Source: Trametopsis cervina
Lineage: Eukaryota > Basidiomycota > Agaricomycetes > Polyporales > Irpicaceae
Reading direction: 5' to 3'
DNA length: 64,000 nucleotides
Assembly: GCA_022385755.1 (NCBI GenBank)
Contig: MU278349.1
Coordinates: forward strand, 1,302,001 to 1,366,000
The notes under the pieces were generated by a model, which was not told the DNA's origin, searched no databases, and saw nothing but the letters and a program-made list of their open reading frames with translations. Of the stretch, positions 26,284 to 34,870 are shown one piece after another (the first letter of the stretch is position 1; each line of letters opens with the position of its first letter). Made by a program: the position numbers and the translations under genes.

Positions 26284-29200
26284 ATGGAAGGAGACACAGT
26301 CAAAACAGCTTACATTTCGGCAGCAACGAATAGATTCCCGTACGCAGCGGCTGCGCGAAATTCATTGATTGCTTTCGCGTCCTCAACGTATGTTGCGTTA
26401 TGGAACACAGAGGTCGGTATTTCGCTTCGTAAAATTGAAGTGAGGAAGGCTGATTACGTGTATGTATAGGACGAATATGACGCTGGTGCTCATTGCACAC
26501 TACCAGGCCACGAAGGAACAGTGACCGGGTTGAGGTTTATCAACGATGGCCTACTCCTTAGTGCAGATGACAGAGGACTCATCGTTCTGTGGCGGAACAA
26601 AGATCAAAAGGTAGGGCTAGGTCTCCATTGTATCTGTATCATTCTAAATCGCGCGAACTCAGTGGCTCAAAGTCACGAGCATACAAGCACATAGCAAGGC
26701 TATTACTGCCATTGCGGTATATGGCGAGACAATCGTCACAGGAGCCTCTGATTCTCTCGCAAAAATATGGAAGGTGACTCCTAATGGTAAACATTTTTCG
26801 AGCATTTTCGTGCTCCCGTTTCTCAATTCATTATCCTAATATGACTGCTCTAGGCGAGATTTCCGAGCTTCAGACTATCAATCTGAAGAACCGATATCCT
26901 CTCTCAATTGACATCTCCCGGCTGCCGTGTTCGCAAGGTAAGCGATGAGCTGCTGCACTCCACATTCTTTCAACTTATATCAAATATAGCGTTGATACTC
27001 GCTGTGGGCGGGACCGATCGAAGTATACAGATATGGACCCGCTCCGATCAAGAGGTACACCACTCTTTGAAGTGATTCTTTTTGATGTTTCCTGATGAAG
27101 CCCTTCTTTGTAGTTTGTATCGTCCGCCTCCTTGTCAGGACATGAAGACTGGGTGAAGACACTCGCGTTCCGACAACTTGAGCTCGAGGATGAGAACGTG
27201 CTGGTGCTCGCCTCGGGTTCACAAGACTCCACGATCCGTTTGTGGAACATCGAGCCATATTATAAGCAAACGGCTGCTTCTGCCACGTATGAATCAGTGA
27301 ATGCCCTCAGCGATGATTTGTTAGACGCGTTTGAAGCATCACTTGGGGACCTTGCGGATGCGGAAGAGGGTGGACGCCAAATATCACTCAAGAGGCACGT
27401 CCTGACTGTTAGAAACAGTGAGCAGAGGTTAGTGATTCCCTCAATGGTTTCGACATTCCGGCTCAGTTTTCGCGAGAAAGTCAGCAGCAGTTCACTATTA
27501 CATTTGACGCACTGCTCGTTGGCCACGAGGCCGGAGTGACAAGCCTGTCCTGGAGGCCTTCCTCATCTGCCTACCCTGAACCTACTCTCCTCTCAACCTC
27601 TACAGATTCTTCACTGATTCTCTGGTCTCCGTCTACAATACTTGGGTCTTCTCAAGACACAAACACAACGTTGTGGATCAATAGACACCGCTTCGGAGAT
27701 ATCGGTGGTCAGCGCTTGGGTGGCTTCGTCCTCGGTCTGTGGAGTGGAAAAGGCAAAGAAGCACTGGGATGTGGATGGAGTGGAGGCTGGAGACGATGGC
27801 GTTGTACGTCCACTACTGACGATTCGTCCTCGATAGAAGATTGGCAGGAGGTAGGTGCAATTGGCGGGCACAGTGGTCCTGTAAAAAGCCTAGCTTGGAG
27901 CCCTGGGGGTGAATACTTGATCTCCATAGGGTATGTAACCACTGAACATTATATGTGTTGACTTCCCCTGACCAGTTCTCGCAGTCTCGATCAGACTACC
28001 CGAATACACGGAGATGTTCATCTAGCAGACGCGGGTGTCAAGGTTTGGCACGAACTCAGTCGCCCTCAAGTTCACGGCTACGATTTACTCGATGCTGCAT
28101 TCCTTGATCCCCTCAAGTTCGTCAGTATCGCAGACGAAAAGGTTGCTCGTGTATTTGAAGCGCCGCGGGAGTTCGTCGATACCGTGAAGAATCTTCAGGG
28201 GGCACAAGTGTCCACCGATGCAGTGAGCACTGTCAGCCACGCATCAGGATGCCTCACTCACATTCCCCATAGTCGGAAAGACCGCGGGCAGCCACTGTGC
28301 CTCCTCTTGGCCTATCAAACAAGGCTGTCAGCGATGGTGAGTCAGCCCTGTGTCTTGTGTACTAGCCGAGCTTATCAATGTCTGACATAGCGAGCCCCCA
28401 AACTGCCTATGATATCGAACGAACGGAGCGTTGTCCCTTTGAGGGTGAACTGGCTGCATTTACATTATGGCCAGAAATTGATAAGGTTTTCGGGCACGGA
28501 TACGAGGTATGAATAACGATTGATCTCGGTACGCATCTAATTACTTGCTAGTCGATTACTTTAGCGGTTTCCTCGAGTAAACGGCACGCTGCAACTGCGT
28601 GTAAAGCGACCACAGCTGACCATGCCGTTGTCCGAGTATACAACACGACAAACTGGCAACCATTTGGAGCACCACTCGCAGGACATAGTCTGACAGTAAC
28701 CGGGGTGGCATTCAGCCCCGATGACAAACATGTAGTCACGGTCTCGCGAGATCGCTCATGGCGACTATTTCGAGCGAACGATTCTGGCGGTGAGCTCAAA
28801 TGTCCCCGGATCCCGGGGGTGAACACTGACAATAAGTTAGATGGGTTCGTGCCCGTAGCTGCTGATAAGTCGCATGCCCGGATCATATGGGACTGCTGTT
28901 GGGCAAATGAAGGGGATGTTTTCGCGACGGCCTCTCGAGATAAAACCGTAAGTGAGAAATGGCGATACGGCAAGGCTATAACTCAATGTCCGTGGCAGGT
29001 GAAAATATGGCACATACGGAACCTGGAGGGATCATCAAAATGGTCTCCTGAAGCGACGCTCAAGCTTCCAGAAGCTGCCACAGCAGTTGCGTTTACATCT
29101 GAAGCTGATCATGATAGGTGCGTGTGTATGTTGTCAAATACCCGAAGACACCCCTGATTGACCACGCTGAGGCAGGCGGTACCTGGCGGTTGGGCTGGAA

Positions 29201-29451
29201 TCTGGGGAGATCGTTATGTATTCCAACGAGCCGTCGTCCCCAACGAAGTGGCGAGAGGACCTGCAAATTTCTTCACAGTACGTAACACTCTAACGCAAGT
29301 AGGCCTTATCTCACCTCGTGTCAGATTTGCACATACCGGTCAAATTCACCGGCTGGCGTGGAGGCCCGGCCAATCAGGACCAACTAGACAGCTGGCGAGT
29401 TGTAGCGAAGACGGTGCATTGAAGGTATTAGAGGTCCATATCAAGAAATAA
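26284..29451 (+). CDS. ELP2: Elongator complex subunit ELP2 (WD40 protein)
   Basis: Fourteen exons: 26284-26412, 26470-26610, 26663-26786, 26854-26937, 26990-27054, 27114-27427, 27481-27930, 27985-28222, 28273-28336, 28391-28506, 28552-28947, 28999-29117, 29176-29277 and 29325-29451, 822 aa. ELP2 is the double seven-bladed propeller that scaffolds the ELP1-ELP2-ELP3 lobe of Elongator, which modifies wobble uridines of tRNA. Seen: WD repeats such as GHEGTVTGLRF and GHEDWVKTLAF. Also seen are the ELP2-specific block WINRHRFGDIGGQRLGGF, then GGHSGPVKSLAWSPGGEYLIS, TTRIHG, WHELSRPQVHGYD, ATVPPLGLSNKA, LWPEIDKVFGHGYE and the C-terminal LASCSEDGALKVLEV. The acceptor at 27480 is aaag, chosen by phase. 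The length matches the family. Confidence 0.95.
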
Positions 29452-29699: not shown

Positions 29700-32600
29700 C
29701 TAGACAATGTCACGGAGGCTGACCGGGACTTCGGGCTTAGGGTAGAACAGTGTTAGTCGTCAGACAGTGAGTTGAACTATCAAGGGAACTCACGCATTTA
29801 ATCCTGAGAACGGGTACCATCAGTAAGGTCGTCGGCCGGGCGGTATAGACAGGACTCACTTGTAAAAGCACTCTATGGAGCGTAACATTTCGACGTCGCC
29901 ACCGGTAGCGGTGACGAAGTTGATTACGACTCCGGCACGAGAATAATTGGATGCCATAGCGGGAGCAACTCTGATAAAGCTACGGTCAGCGCTGAAACAA
30001 TAGGACTGACAAATAAGTTAGCTTACCTGTGAGCATATTCTTCCACAGCTTTTGGCAAATCTGATGGGGTATCGGTTATTATATGTGAGGCGGCCACAAT
30101 GCAATGCATACCATAGTTGATGACAAGCGGCACCTGCTGGACGTCAGGAGCCTTCACTACCACATCGTAAACGAGCAGGACTTTGGTTGATGGCGGGCGC
30201 ATTAGGCCATCTGAGGGATTGCGGAATTTGTTGAGAGCGGCAAGTTTTGTACCGGCATTCATATCGCTATGCTGGTGGGATGTAAGCCATCAGGTTCAAG
30301 ACATCGGCAGTTAACTGTCGTACCAAGGGAACCACCTCCATGCCACGGGTGCTCAGTTTATACATGACGGCCTCCAAAGCCGTGCTACCGCCGACGTGGA
30401 TAATTGCATGGGACACGCCCAAGTCATCGAAGAGGTCAGCAAGGGCATCCAGTTTCCACTCGCGAGCCTGTGTCGTCTCTGCGCTCGATGTGGCACCGCG
30501 ACCCGATCCGATTATTCCCAAACCCTGCTGTGGCAGAGACGTGTCTGCTCTACCACCGCCTGCCGTGAACGCCAAGTAGAGGTAGAATTGGCGTAAGCCA
30601 CGAGCTCCTGACCCGCTGTCTGAATGCGTAACGTTGCCATCCCGGCGCACTAGAACGCGAACCGGTTCCCTCAGTTGGATCGTCGTCGCAAGGTTGAGGA
30701 CGTCCTGTGGAACGGTATTCGAGAAGAGAGCTGTTTGACGATCGGCGGTTTGCGAAGCACCAGGGTTATCAAGCGAAGGAGAAGAGCCAATTGTAGAGAG
30801 TCTTCTATTCAAGCTCAAAGTTGAAGGGTTGAGTGACGAGGAAGACCCGTTGCCGTCAATGACGGAATACAGAGAGTGTCCGTTTCCGTTCGCGTTCGGC
30901 GTTCCCGGAGAAAGCGTGCGCGAACGAGGAGGAGGTAGCAGCTTGACGATAGTGAAGACGAAGTCTTGCAGATTGCGCGCAATCAACTGATCAACTTCGT
31001 CCAGAACCAAGAACCGAACTTCGGCCCCGGAGATCCCTCCGGGGCTGGTGAACAGCGCATGGAGCTTTTGAGGGGTGCCGCAGAGGATGTGGGGCATGTT
31101 CTGATGCAAAAGACGAAGTTCCTGACCGAGTTCGCTATTGGCCGATGTCGCACCGACGCCCAGCGCGGATCGTACACCTATAGGACCTCCGAGGTCACGA
31201 ATCATCCTCTGCGCCTGAGTAGCCTGGTCCACTGTGGTCGATATCATTATCACTAACGGCCCGCGCAGAGGGACGCGGGGAGCGGCGTGCGTGAGGGCGA
31301 TGTGGATAGCCGGAATAACATATGCTGCAATTCGTTCCTGCGTTGGTGGCGCTTGTGCAATGATGTCGGCACCCCGGAGGAGGAAGGGCAGAGCACGCTG
31401 CTGAATCTTGTTCGGCGGTCCCACACTGTGTGTTACATATATTTCAGTACCACCACCATCAGCTAAAGATTAGATGGATCGAACTTACCCAAAAGTACTC
31501 AACGAACGTAAGAGATCAGGTGCAAGAGCCAATTGATCCCATTTAGAGATCACTGGCCCACTCTCACGAGACGATGTCGACATAGCCTCCGTCTGCCAAA
31601 GATGTCAGACGTCAGATAACATTAGGTCACAAGAAAACTCACTGCCACTGAGTCTCTGCGCATCATTCCAGTCACTGAACGCCGTTTATCACGGAAGGCA
31701 GAGTCAGGCCGACCCATACTCCCATTGGGCGAGTCATTGGAGGCTCGCATTGCGAGATCCAATGCGCCAGCAGACCATGTACGATTCGGCGGACCAGGAA
31801 CGCGAGGCGAAGGTCGACTGGGAATGCCGTGTCCAAGTACGCCAGGACCTGTCCCAGGTGGGACAAGGCTGCCTCTGGGGGCCAGGTCGCCTGGTGATAA
31901 GGTTTGAGCAAGAGATTGAGATGGATGTCCGTTGGCCTGCTGCATAGCAAGTAACTGATCGACAGATGTAGAGAGCGAAGTCAGCCTGTGGGAGATGAGG
32001 GACATGTCGTCAGGAGGGCCTGTTTGGTTAGGAGGGATGTTTCCTATGATTGAGCCGCGAGGCCCACTGAATCCGTTGAGGTTCGGGGCAGAGAACGATG
32101 GGGCTGATGAGGGAGCGAAAGGATTACTAAACTCTGGCACCGCGGGAGTGGTTGCGCCCAACGTCCTGTCCACCAATAAATCCACCTTGCGAGTTACGTC
32201 TACAAGATCCCGCTGTATATCTCGCGCTGTTGCCTCATACCGTTCTAAGCGGCCGAACAGCTCGTGGATGAGCGGCGATGACTTCAACTGTGTCTCAAAA
32301 CTTGCTGACAGCTCAAGGCTGGGTGTGAACATACTCCCCGAGCCCAACGACGAGGCCGGAGAGGAGGAGAGAAAATGATTGTTGGCTCCTCCAAACGAGG
32401 AGGTTCTCGAGCTGATCTCCGTCGCAACGGGCGGAGTGTTCAGCCTGTCTCTTGCTCGACCCATCACGCTGGTGTAGTGCCCGTTGAGATGTTGTAAGCC
32501 ATTGGTCATTACGGGGCGTGCGGTATCTTCGTGGTCTTGGGGCACCTCTGGAATAGCAGACATGCTTGATTCCCTTGCGAGCTGCCGCTGCAGGTTGGGG

Positions 32601-32911
32601 AAACCCCTCTCCGCGTCCATCTGTCCCATGGTGGGAAGCTGACGAGCTACGTCTGCGACCTGAAACTCGTGTCCGTCCATACGATCGAGTCCTTCCTGAG
32701 ACGAAGGGCTCGGAGACGACTTGAGGGACCGATATTCAGTAGGAGAAACCGAAAGACTGCTGGAGGTAGTAGAAAACCTTTCACGACTGCTACGACGGTG
32801 GAAGCCTAGCCCGAGACCTCTATTGTCGTCCTCTTTGTATTGGCCTCCTCCTCCAGGGAAGAAAGGCGACGACGTAGGGTCGAGCGAGGGAGTGTTCGAA
32901 AGGGTATCCAT
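29700..32911 (-). CDS. eIF4A-like DEAD-box protein with degenerate helicase motifs and long N-terminal extension
   Basis: Eight exons: 32911-31643, 31592-31489, 31425-30324, 30271-30112, 30060-30027, 29970-29860, a 10-base exon 29803-29794, and 29735-29700, 941 aa. Residues 1-420 are Ser/Pro/Asn-rich with one predicted helical stretch (LIHELFGRLERYEATARDIQ). From about residue 455 the sequence follows eIF4A: IQQRALPFLLRGADIIAQAPP, VLDEVDQLIARN, TALFSNTVPQDVL, REPVRVLVRRDG, REWKLDALADLFDDL, PLVINYDLPKAVEEY, RAGVVINFV and the ending PEVPVSLRDIV. Motif I (AxxGxGKT) is AQAPPTQE, DEAD is DEVD, SAT is SNT, and HRIGR of motif VI is gone, so ATP hydrolysis is unlikely. A 65-residue insert (about 624-690) interrupts the first RecA lobe. 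The first ATG was taken as start; an upstream exon is possible. Confidence 0.85.
29794..29803 (-). other. 10-base microexon of the eIF4A-like gene
   Basis: The ten bases gattaaatgc are flanked by ctcag on the 5' side and gtgagt on the 3' side. They are needed to join FYK to PEVPVSLRDIV in frame, and they supply IKC, which matches the spacing between the last beta strand and the C-terminal tail of eIF4A. Confidence 0.7.
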
Positions 32912-33417: not shown

Positions 33418-34442
33418 TTATCGTTTCTTTGTGGATTTCGTGTTTGGCCTCTGTTGACCCCCATTCGCACGCGAACGGAATTGGTATGCGATACGGGCGT
33501 TCGTAGACTGGCCCTGTAGACGTGACGAACTAGTCTTTGACGAACTGGCATGTTTCGCTGCAGTCCGTGAAACAGGTCTTTCAAGACGTGCAATCCGTCA
33601 GATACGCGCCGGAGACATGTACAGGTAGGCACTCACTCTCGTGCTGTCAACGCAGCTTCCAGTCGTGACCGTGGTTCAGCAGGTTCGGATTTGGTGTAGC
33701 CAGAGACCATTTGCGTGAACTCTGGCAGATCGAGCGCGTCGCGGGCAACCTGGAATGAATTGGCACGACTGGCCACAAAGCGGAGGACAATAAGAAACTC
33801 ACCACAATCTTCTTCCCGTTGACTTCTCTACCATTCATCTCCATGGCCCGAAACACAGCACCCGCATGCTTGAATTCCACCGACGCGTACACCTGGTTCT
33901 CAATAAGCCGCTCTTTGCCTGTGGCGTTGGTTCCTGGCCTGAAACTCCTCGGGTACCCGCGCGCAGAACGCATAACAACAGATTGAACGGGTCCAAATAT
34001 TTGGAAGACTTCCTCCAGCTGTAACTCGGTGATTTCTGCCGTCAACTGCACGTATGTTAATGGAGGAATTTGCAGTCGAACGGAGATGACTGACATTGCC
34101 TACGTAGATGTACTTCTGGTGGAACTGTTTCAGCACTGAGCGCACCCTCTCTTTCTTCTGCGCAATCCTCTTCTGATCCTTTATCTTTGTCTCCTCTGCA
34201 GCCTTGGGGAGAACAGCGGGCTTTACTCTATGTTTGGCCTTGCGCGCACTGTGTGGAGGGGGAGTAGCGGGAGCAGGTTCAGCCCTCTGTTTCCCCTTCG
34301 AGGATCCCTTGGCTGCACCCTACGAACCAAGCTCAGTGGACATCTTTGGAATATGGGGCCTACATACCTGAGACGAACTAGCGGCCTGGCCAGCAGAGCC
34401 GACCTCCTCGTAGGATACACTCGGGCAACGATATCGCCCCAT
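33418..34442 (-). CDS. RNA-binding protein with one RRM, function unknown
   Basis: Five exons: 34442-34368, 34319-34095, 34045-33803, 33749-33637 and 33577-33418, 271 aa. Seen: a Lys/Ala/Pro-rich basic N-terminal region with KRIAQKKERVRSVLKQ, then a single RRM. The RNP2 strand is KYIYVGN, broken by an intron, followed by LTAEITELQLEEVFQIFGPV. The RNP1-like strand is VYASVEFKHAGAVFRAMEM, and the last strand is NGREVNGKKIVVARD. The C-terminus is Ser/Arg/Lys-rich (KTSSSRLQGQ, ending KSTKKR) and probably nuclear. RNP1 has Tyr-Ala-Ser-Val-Glu-Phe, an acceptable RNA-binding strand. The protein is not PABPN1, which lies at 61 kb. It is divergent from the FMC1 gene. Confidence 0.8.
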
Positions 34443-34870
34443 CCAGGAAGAGACGGTAAGTATAGGAAGGTGTTTGTGGGAGAGTTAGAGTATGTGTGCG
34501 CCTCGAGGTATATAAGCTGAAGAAGACGTCTTGAGATGGCCCACATTGAAGCCCTTGTTCGAGGCTGGAGTTATATGTTGCAATCCCAGTGGCCAGCGCA
34601 CTTGACGGCCGCGTCATGTCAAAATGGCCACACGGAAATTAAACTCTTTCTACGGCCATAATGCCTTGTTGAGTCGTGGTGTATGCGAAAATGTGAATAT
34701 CCATGAAATAATATCTGCCACCCGCGATGGCCACGCGGCTTTGTCATTGTATTTAGATTTAATCCCGAGCAATTGTGACTGTCACGATGATCCGCCACTG
34801 CGCCTGAGCACAGAAGTGTCACACATCCTGGCCGCTAAGCTCGAGTTATTCCTCATCAGCTTACCGTGTC
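34443..34870. promoter_or_regulatory. Divergent promoter interval between RRM gene and FMC1
   Basis: 428 bases between two divergent starts, without coding signal. It is assumed to hold both promoters; no specific box is convincing. Confidence 0.4.

Follow-up and report, generated by a model that had tools for sequence, protein, structure and literature searches.

The window, a stretch of 64,000 nucleotides of the Trametopsis cervina genome (29.4 Mb in 59 contigs, with the window on contig C2), contains on its minus strand a gene for a protein that is almost certainly a member of an ancient family of conserved pseudohelicases of the Basidiomycota (Table 1). An extension of about 435 residues is followed in this protein by two RecA-like lobes resembling those of translation initiation factor eIF4A. 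The gene model was re-derived, with introns that are all of the GT-AG type and with 941 codons followed by a stop; the open frame, eight-exon structure and ends given in an earlier note on this DNA were all recovered, and every peptide quoted there is present. The public model of the gene (P0001, 927 amino acids), identical to the window protein over the aligned stretch, ends at FYK, 14 residues early, without the end that lies behind a 10-nucleotide exon. Because 81 of 120 relatives (the best 120 of 370 matches to a core query) end with CPE[VI]P..LRD, the 941-residue ending is preferred over the public one; models ending right after IECF[YH]K number 10 among the same 120. No second copy of the gene was found in the genome, where the next matches are ordinary helicases with about 30% identity, and the DNA pattern of its motif I occurs there once.

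Both lobes are supported by Pfam (DEAD at residues 463-626, E 1.6e-14; Helicase_C at 782-891, E 2.8e-9; both above cut-off) and by the predicted model and structural alignments, lobe 1 of the predicted fold superposing on human eIF4A at 1.7 Å over 206 residues. The Pfam scan of the protein gave nothing besides these two domains, and thus no Utp25 match. Human eIF4A1 was the reference for comparison of the motifs. Besides the changes listed in Table 1, motif Ia reads STTVDQ (APTREL in eIF4A), motif Ib GTPQK (GTPGR), motif IV HVGGS (FINTR) and motif V YDVVVKAPD (TDLLARGID); the P-loop GTGKT of eIF4A is replaced by TQERI (K by R, T by I), and in motif VI the initial Arg of HR is retained and the GRxGR arginines are gone. 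The earlier statement that every catalytic motif is altered is borne out for the eight motifs from I to VI (Ia and Ib included), each of which differs from the reference, but it goes too far in that the Gln of the Q motif, the residues D, E and D of DEVD and the Arg that follows His in motif VI are kept. In P-loop enzymes, loss of GKT should abolish binding of phosphate and magnesium, and the GRxGR arginines close the ATP site in helicases. With GxGKT replaced by TQERI, SAT by SNT or SCT, and no arginine fingers left, ordinary ATP binding and hydrolysis by the rebuilt site should be impossible, and we infer that ATPase activity is absent.

Table 1. Features of the pseudohelicase gene and its neighbours (positions in the window)
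Feature	Position	Strand	Remarks
Whole gene	29700..32911	minus	eight exons, 941 amino acids; re-derived gene model
Exons	32911-31643, 31592-31489, 31425-30324, 30271-30112, 30060-30027, 29970-29860, 29803-29794, 29735-29700	minus	
N-terminal motif LDPTSSPFFP, residues 10-19, PAM2-like spacing	32855..32884	minus	LNPxSxPFFP in Agaricomycete relatives
Predicted long helix, residues 201-254	32150..32311	minus	predicted local distance difference test score (pLDDT) 80-89 over residues 211-250
Second predicted helix, residues 302-325	31937..32008	minus	pLDDT 54-67
RRDS, residues 418-421	31649..31660	minus	PKA-type RRxS just ahead of the core
Altered motif I, AQAPPTQER, residues 481-489	31332..31358	minus	eIF4A has AQAQSGTGK
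Altered motif II, DEVD, residues 600-603	30990..31001	minus	eIF4A has DEAD
Altered motif III, SNT, residues 693-695	30714..30722	minus	eIF4A has SAT
Altered motif VI, HR/VAPAMA	29952..30031	minus	interrupted by intron 5; eIF4A has HRIGRGGR
10-nucleotide exon	29794..29803	minus	encodes IKC of the C-terminal tail; absent from the public model
Small RNA recognition motif (RRM) gene	about 33420-34450	minus	directly upstream, same strand as the pseudohelicase
WD40-repeat gene	about 27100-29451	plus	tail-to-tail with the pseudohelicase; Pfam: WD40 only

Relatives were collected in three protein searches, with the core of the window protein (370 matches, best 120 retrieved), with the core alone (523 matches, best 120 retrieved) and with a longer-protein query (106 matches, complete, 965-3071 amino acids), which together yielded 306 proteins; lineage was checked for five species. 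All retrieved matches to the core queries that are assigned to a named fungus (best 120 of 370 and best 120 of 523) are from Agaricomycetes, together with one Dacrymycete, Calocera (P0183). The longer-protein search extended the family to Tremellomycetes (Phaffia at 49% and Naganishia at 46% identity), Ustilaginomycotina (Meira at 42%, Exobasidium, Tilletia, Testicularia and Sporisorium) and Pucciniomycotina (Sporobolomyces, Rhodotorula and Microbotryum at 38-39%), with a gap between the last family member (P0302, E 9.8e-37) and ordinary helicases (from E 8.7e-12). The family has so far been found in Basidiomycota, and short relatives elsewhere are possible beyond the best 120 of 370 and the best 120 of 523 matches. 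One protein labelled as from the fern Adiantum nelumboides (P0238) carries AQAPPTQER and aligns with Exobasidiomycete members; it probably comes from fungal DNA contaminating that genome. The last family member, P0302, is highly divergent, combining VQAPPTQER with DEAD on a long tree branch, and may come from an unsampled lineage.

The rebuilt motif I, as QAP[PAS][TI]QER, is present in 299 of the 306 retrieved proteins, the other seven being three fragments that begin past motif I and four generic helicases; the variants are AQAPPTQER (278), AQAPAIQER (17), SQAPSIQER (2), AQAPSIQER (1) and VQAPPTQER (1). Among the best 120 of 370 matches, IIAQAPPTQER, DEVD and SNT each occur in 120 of 120. Across the phylum, an alignment of 81 rows has DEVD in 57, DECD in 21 and DEAD in 3 at motif II, and SNT in 61 and SCT in 20 at motif III. 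A DECD motif II is in itself no proof of lost activity, since DECD occurs in active Sub2/UAP56. The GRxGR arginines are found in none of the 74 rows in which the motif VI stretch is aligned, the remaining seven lacking it or being unaligned there. The comparison with orthologs envisaged in the earlier note thus gave relatives in three subphyla that share the altered motifs, and no ortholog with intact motifs among the matches listed.

Constraint on the dead site was measured in an alignment of 61 members (30 from Agaricomycetes/Dacrymycetes, 31 from elsewhere). Of 392 nine-residue windows of the core, those conserved best cover motifs II, III, I and Ia, windows of motif I taking ranks 6 and 8. 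Columns were compared where human eIF4A1 and two Trametopsis paralogs have a residue in common, and were counted as fixed when 95% or more of the 61 rows agree; 27 columns are fixed for a residue differing from the one in eIF4A1 and the paralogs, and 38 for the identical one. Q487, E488 and R489 of motif I are invariant in the 61 rows, as are D600, E601 and D603 and the Q-motif Gln466, of which the preceding GF is replaced by GV or GI. In a site undergoing decay conservation should be at its lowest, yet the altered motifs rank among the most conserved, which argues that the site is not decaying; the earlier judgement that this is not simple decay is upheld by conservation of the altered motifs among orthologs in three subphyla. 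A broken site kept nearly unchanged across the club fungi suggests that a dead motor was given a new job, and the high conservation of the rebuilt site relative to the rest of the protein makes it probable that this site is a fixed structural or ligand-binding surface.

The genome retains its ordinary helicases of this type, with an intact eIF4A on contig C5 (73% identity to human eIF4A1), eIF4A3 on C2 (65% over its main piece) and Dhh1 on C3. The normal eIF4A that the earlier note looked for elsewhere in the genome is thus present, and with separate intact eIF4A and eIF4A3 genes the pseudohelicase is ruled out as the eIF4A ortholog of the genome. In the tree the pseudohelicase rows form one clade with support of 100/100, within which the subphyla branch in the expected order. 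A profile search of the PDB scored eIF4A-I at 243 bits, eIF4A-III at 214, yeast eIF4A at 210 and Dhh1 at 130, and eIF4A parentage is favoured because the profile scores rank eIF4A-I above Dhh1. The proposal that the protein is a relative of eIF4A without catalysis, maintained by selection, is supported by these scores and by the altered motifs shared by orthologs. Like eIF4A (DDX2) and eIF4A3/Fal1 (DDX48), which are the best match in sequence and fold, the pseudohelicase has two RecA lobes, the EWKLD linker region, VINYDLP and the C-terminal tail; unlike them, it has an altered P-loop, SAT motif, arginine fingers and RNA motifs, the extension of about 435 residues, a low-complexity insertion that separates motifs II and III in lobe 1, and a lengthened inter-lobe segment. 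Four family members (P0025, P0044, P0056 and P0081) are annotated as eIF4A, FAL1 or eIF4A-3 despite their dead motifs and non-orthology to those genes; the database names 'eIF4A', 'FAL1' and 'RNA helicase' are misleading for this family.

The N-terminal extension is mostly disordered, with conserved positions (61 rows) at E226 (100%), L246 (96%) and R249 (95%) of the first predicted helix and at L313 (98%) and L320 (91%) of the second. A candidate phosphorylation motif, RRx[ST], lies at most 100 residues ahead of KW[DE] in 152 of the 154 rows from Agaricomycetes/Dacrymycetes and in 25 of 71 others; a narrower count over 60 residues gave 125 of 126 and 2 of 33, respectively, and 31 of 980 background windows. 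The LNPxSxPFFP tip was found in 119 of the 148 rows from Agaricomycetes/Dacrymycetes that reach 780 amino acids, and in 120 of 221 rows in a count that includes the window protein. Its spacing is that of the PAM2 consensus, given as xxLNxxAxEFxP in the accessible part of PMC9249222. In this spacing the N-terminal LNPxSxPFFP is like the PAM2 of PAIP1/PAIP2-type proteins; it is unlike it in that the consensus Ala and Glu are replaced and the Pfam PAM2 profile is unmatched. Because the spacing equals that of PAM2 but the profile is unmatched, a possible link of the tip to poly(A)-binding protein (Pab1) is a lead, not a result.

Taken together, the observations are read as those of an eIF4A-like adaptor that would act independently of ATP, probably in mRNA-protein complexes, and to this reading as a whole we assign a probability of roughly 0.5. 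The two RecA lobes still fold, with a rebuilt nucleotide site, and would keep an eIF4A-type partner (for instance RNA or a HEAT domain of the MIF4G type) in one unvarying state without ATP; the disordered extension, through its helix pair and RRxS, would add oligomerisation and phospho-control, and the PAM2-like tip in Agaricomycetes would perhaps contact poly(A)-binding protein. Established here are the gene, its fold and family, the conservation, the loss of motif residues and the presence of an intact eIF4A beside it in the genome, whereas the lack of ATPase, the adaptor role and the partners are inferred. Several points weigh against the adaptor. Tree support for eIF4A as sister is 71/13, joining the family to Dhh1 is not rejected (approximately unbiased test, p-AU 0.31), and the outgroup branches are long. 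Invariance of the Q-motif Gln and of the motif II D, E and last D makes some residual nucleotide contact possible, and DEAD itself is retained in three of the 81 rows. The RRxS is weak outside the Agaricomycetes/Dacrymycetes (the 25 of 71 rows above) and the PAM2-like tip is present in none of 72 rows from outside these classes, and five N-terminal pieces did not match Pfam PAM2 at E up to 10, in a scan where a control peptide matched at E 5.8e-9.

The same invariant residues, Gln466, D600, E601 and D603 together with Q487, E488 and R489, would suit a switch that binds nucleotide or another small ligand without hydrolysis and signals through movement of the lobes, but with GKT lost and arginine fingers in none of the 74 rows such a switch seems rather unlikely. 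Doubtful, too, is a dominant-negative decoy that would occupy the sites of eIF4A on eIF4G (or on a PDCD4-like protein) and so lower initiation in a regulated manner. The profile match being best with eIF4A-I, the eIF4G-type MIF4G domain encoded in the Trametopsis cervina genome, and the retention of EWKLD, VINYDLP and the C-terminal E-x-P tail of eIF4A speak for such a decoy, but lobe 2 of the pseudohelicase is about one third identical to that of eIF4A. That many helicase motifs depart from eIF4A could also be taken for the mark of a pseudogene or of an assembly or annotation artefact, but the open frame, the consensus splice sites and the recurrence of these motif changes across independent records, hundreds in number, exclude a pseudogene, an assembly error and mis-splicing, so that the chance of this is negligible.

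By analogy, the protein might instead be a scaffold for RNA or ribosome assembly that does not remodel RNA. Utp25 has the same design according to the accessible part of PMC9539457, its DEAD-box core being dead and preceded by an N-terminal extension; Utp25/Def is described there as the first fully validated pseudohelicase, and like the present family it keeps a DEAD-box fold in which motifs are dispensable or lost. The family differs from Utp25/Def in lacking a Utp25 Pfam match, in its eIF4A-like parent and in its distribution, so far, in Basidiomycota. A Utp25-like scaffold is very unlikely, as Pfam gives only DEAD and Helicase_C and the motifs that contact RNA (Ia, Ib, IV and V) are altered as well.

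A more specific reading is a dedicated closed-loop regulator of Basidiomycota, in which an ATP-blind copy of eIF4A would be tethered in Agaricomycetes to poly(A)-binding protein by the PAM2-like tip and gated through phosphorylation of RRxS, would clamp an eIF4A partner independently of ATP, and would use the TQER P-loop as a new protein-binding surface. This is distinctly improbable, and if true it would be the first instance in which the catalytic pocket of a DEAD-box protein became a docking site throughout a phylum. Dead enzymes can act as regulators, as the pseudokinases do, and to our knowledge validated pseudohelicases are very few. A family of eIF4A relatives in which the motor was lost before the three basidiomycete subphyla diverged and the dead site was then frozen would demonstrate the usefulness of a DEAD-box core without ATP, and the biology of mushrooms and smuts would gain an unstudied candidate for control of translation or mRNA.

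No published description of the dead motifs of this family was found in a literature search poor in subscription papers. The one relevant publication that this search gave is an inventory by Seto and Saville (2025; PMC12511879), the accessible part of which includes UMAG_05873 of Ustilago maydis, a DEAD-box protein that is uncharacterised, confined to basidiomycetes in that study and linked to translation in STRING, and whose core is said to have 'several canonical' motifs (data not shown in that source), with dead motifs unreported in that part. Because two smut members (P0283 and P0284) are named 'related to TIF2 - translation initiation factor eIF4A', UMAG_05873 is suspected to be of the same family and may belong to it, being likened to it by description and name, not by sequence.

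Both neighbours of the pseudohelicase gene are listed in Table 1. An RRM is fused ahead of the pseudohelicase in nine Agaricomycete models (P0037, P0057, P0110, P0213, P0215, P0216, P0218, P0224 and P0230); these fusions are most simply two adjacent genes merged by annotation, and therefore suggest that the order of the RRM and pseudohelicase genes is conserved in Agaricomycetes. The RRM of the fused models from Cantharellales presumably resembles Pab2/PABPN1, and the product of the WD40-repeat gene resembles Elongator subunit Elp2.
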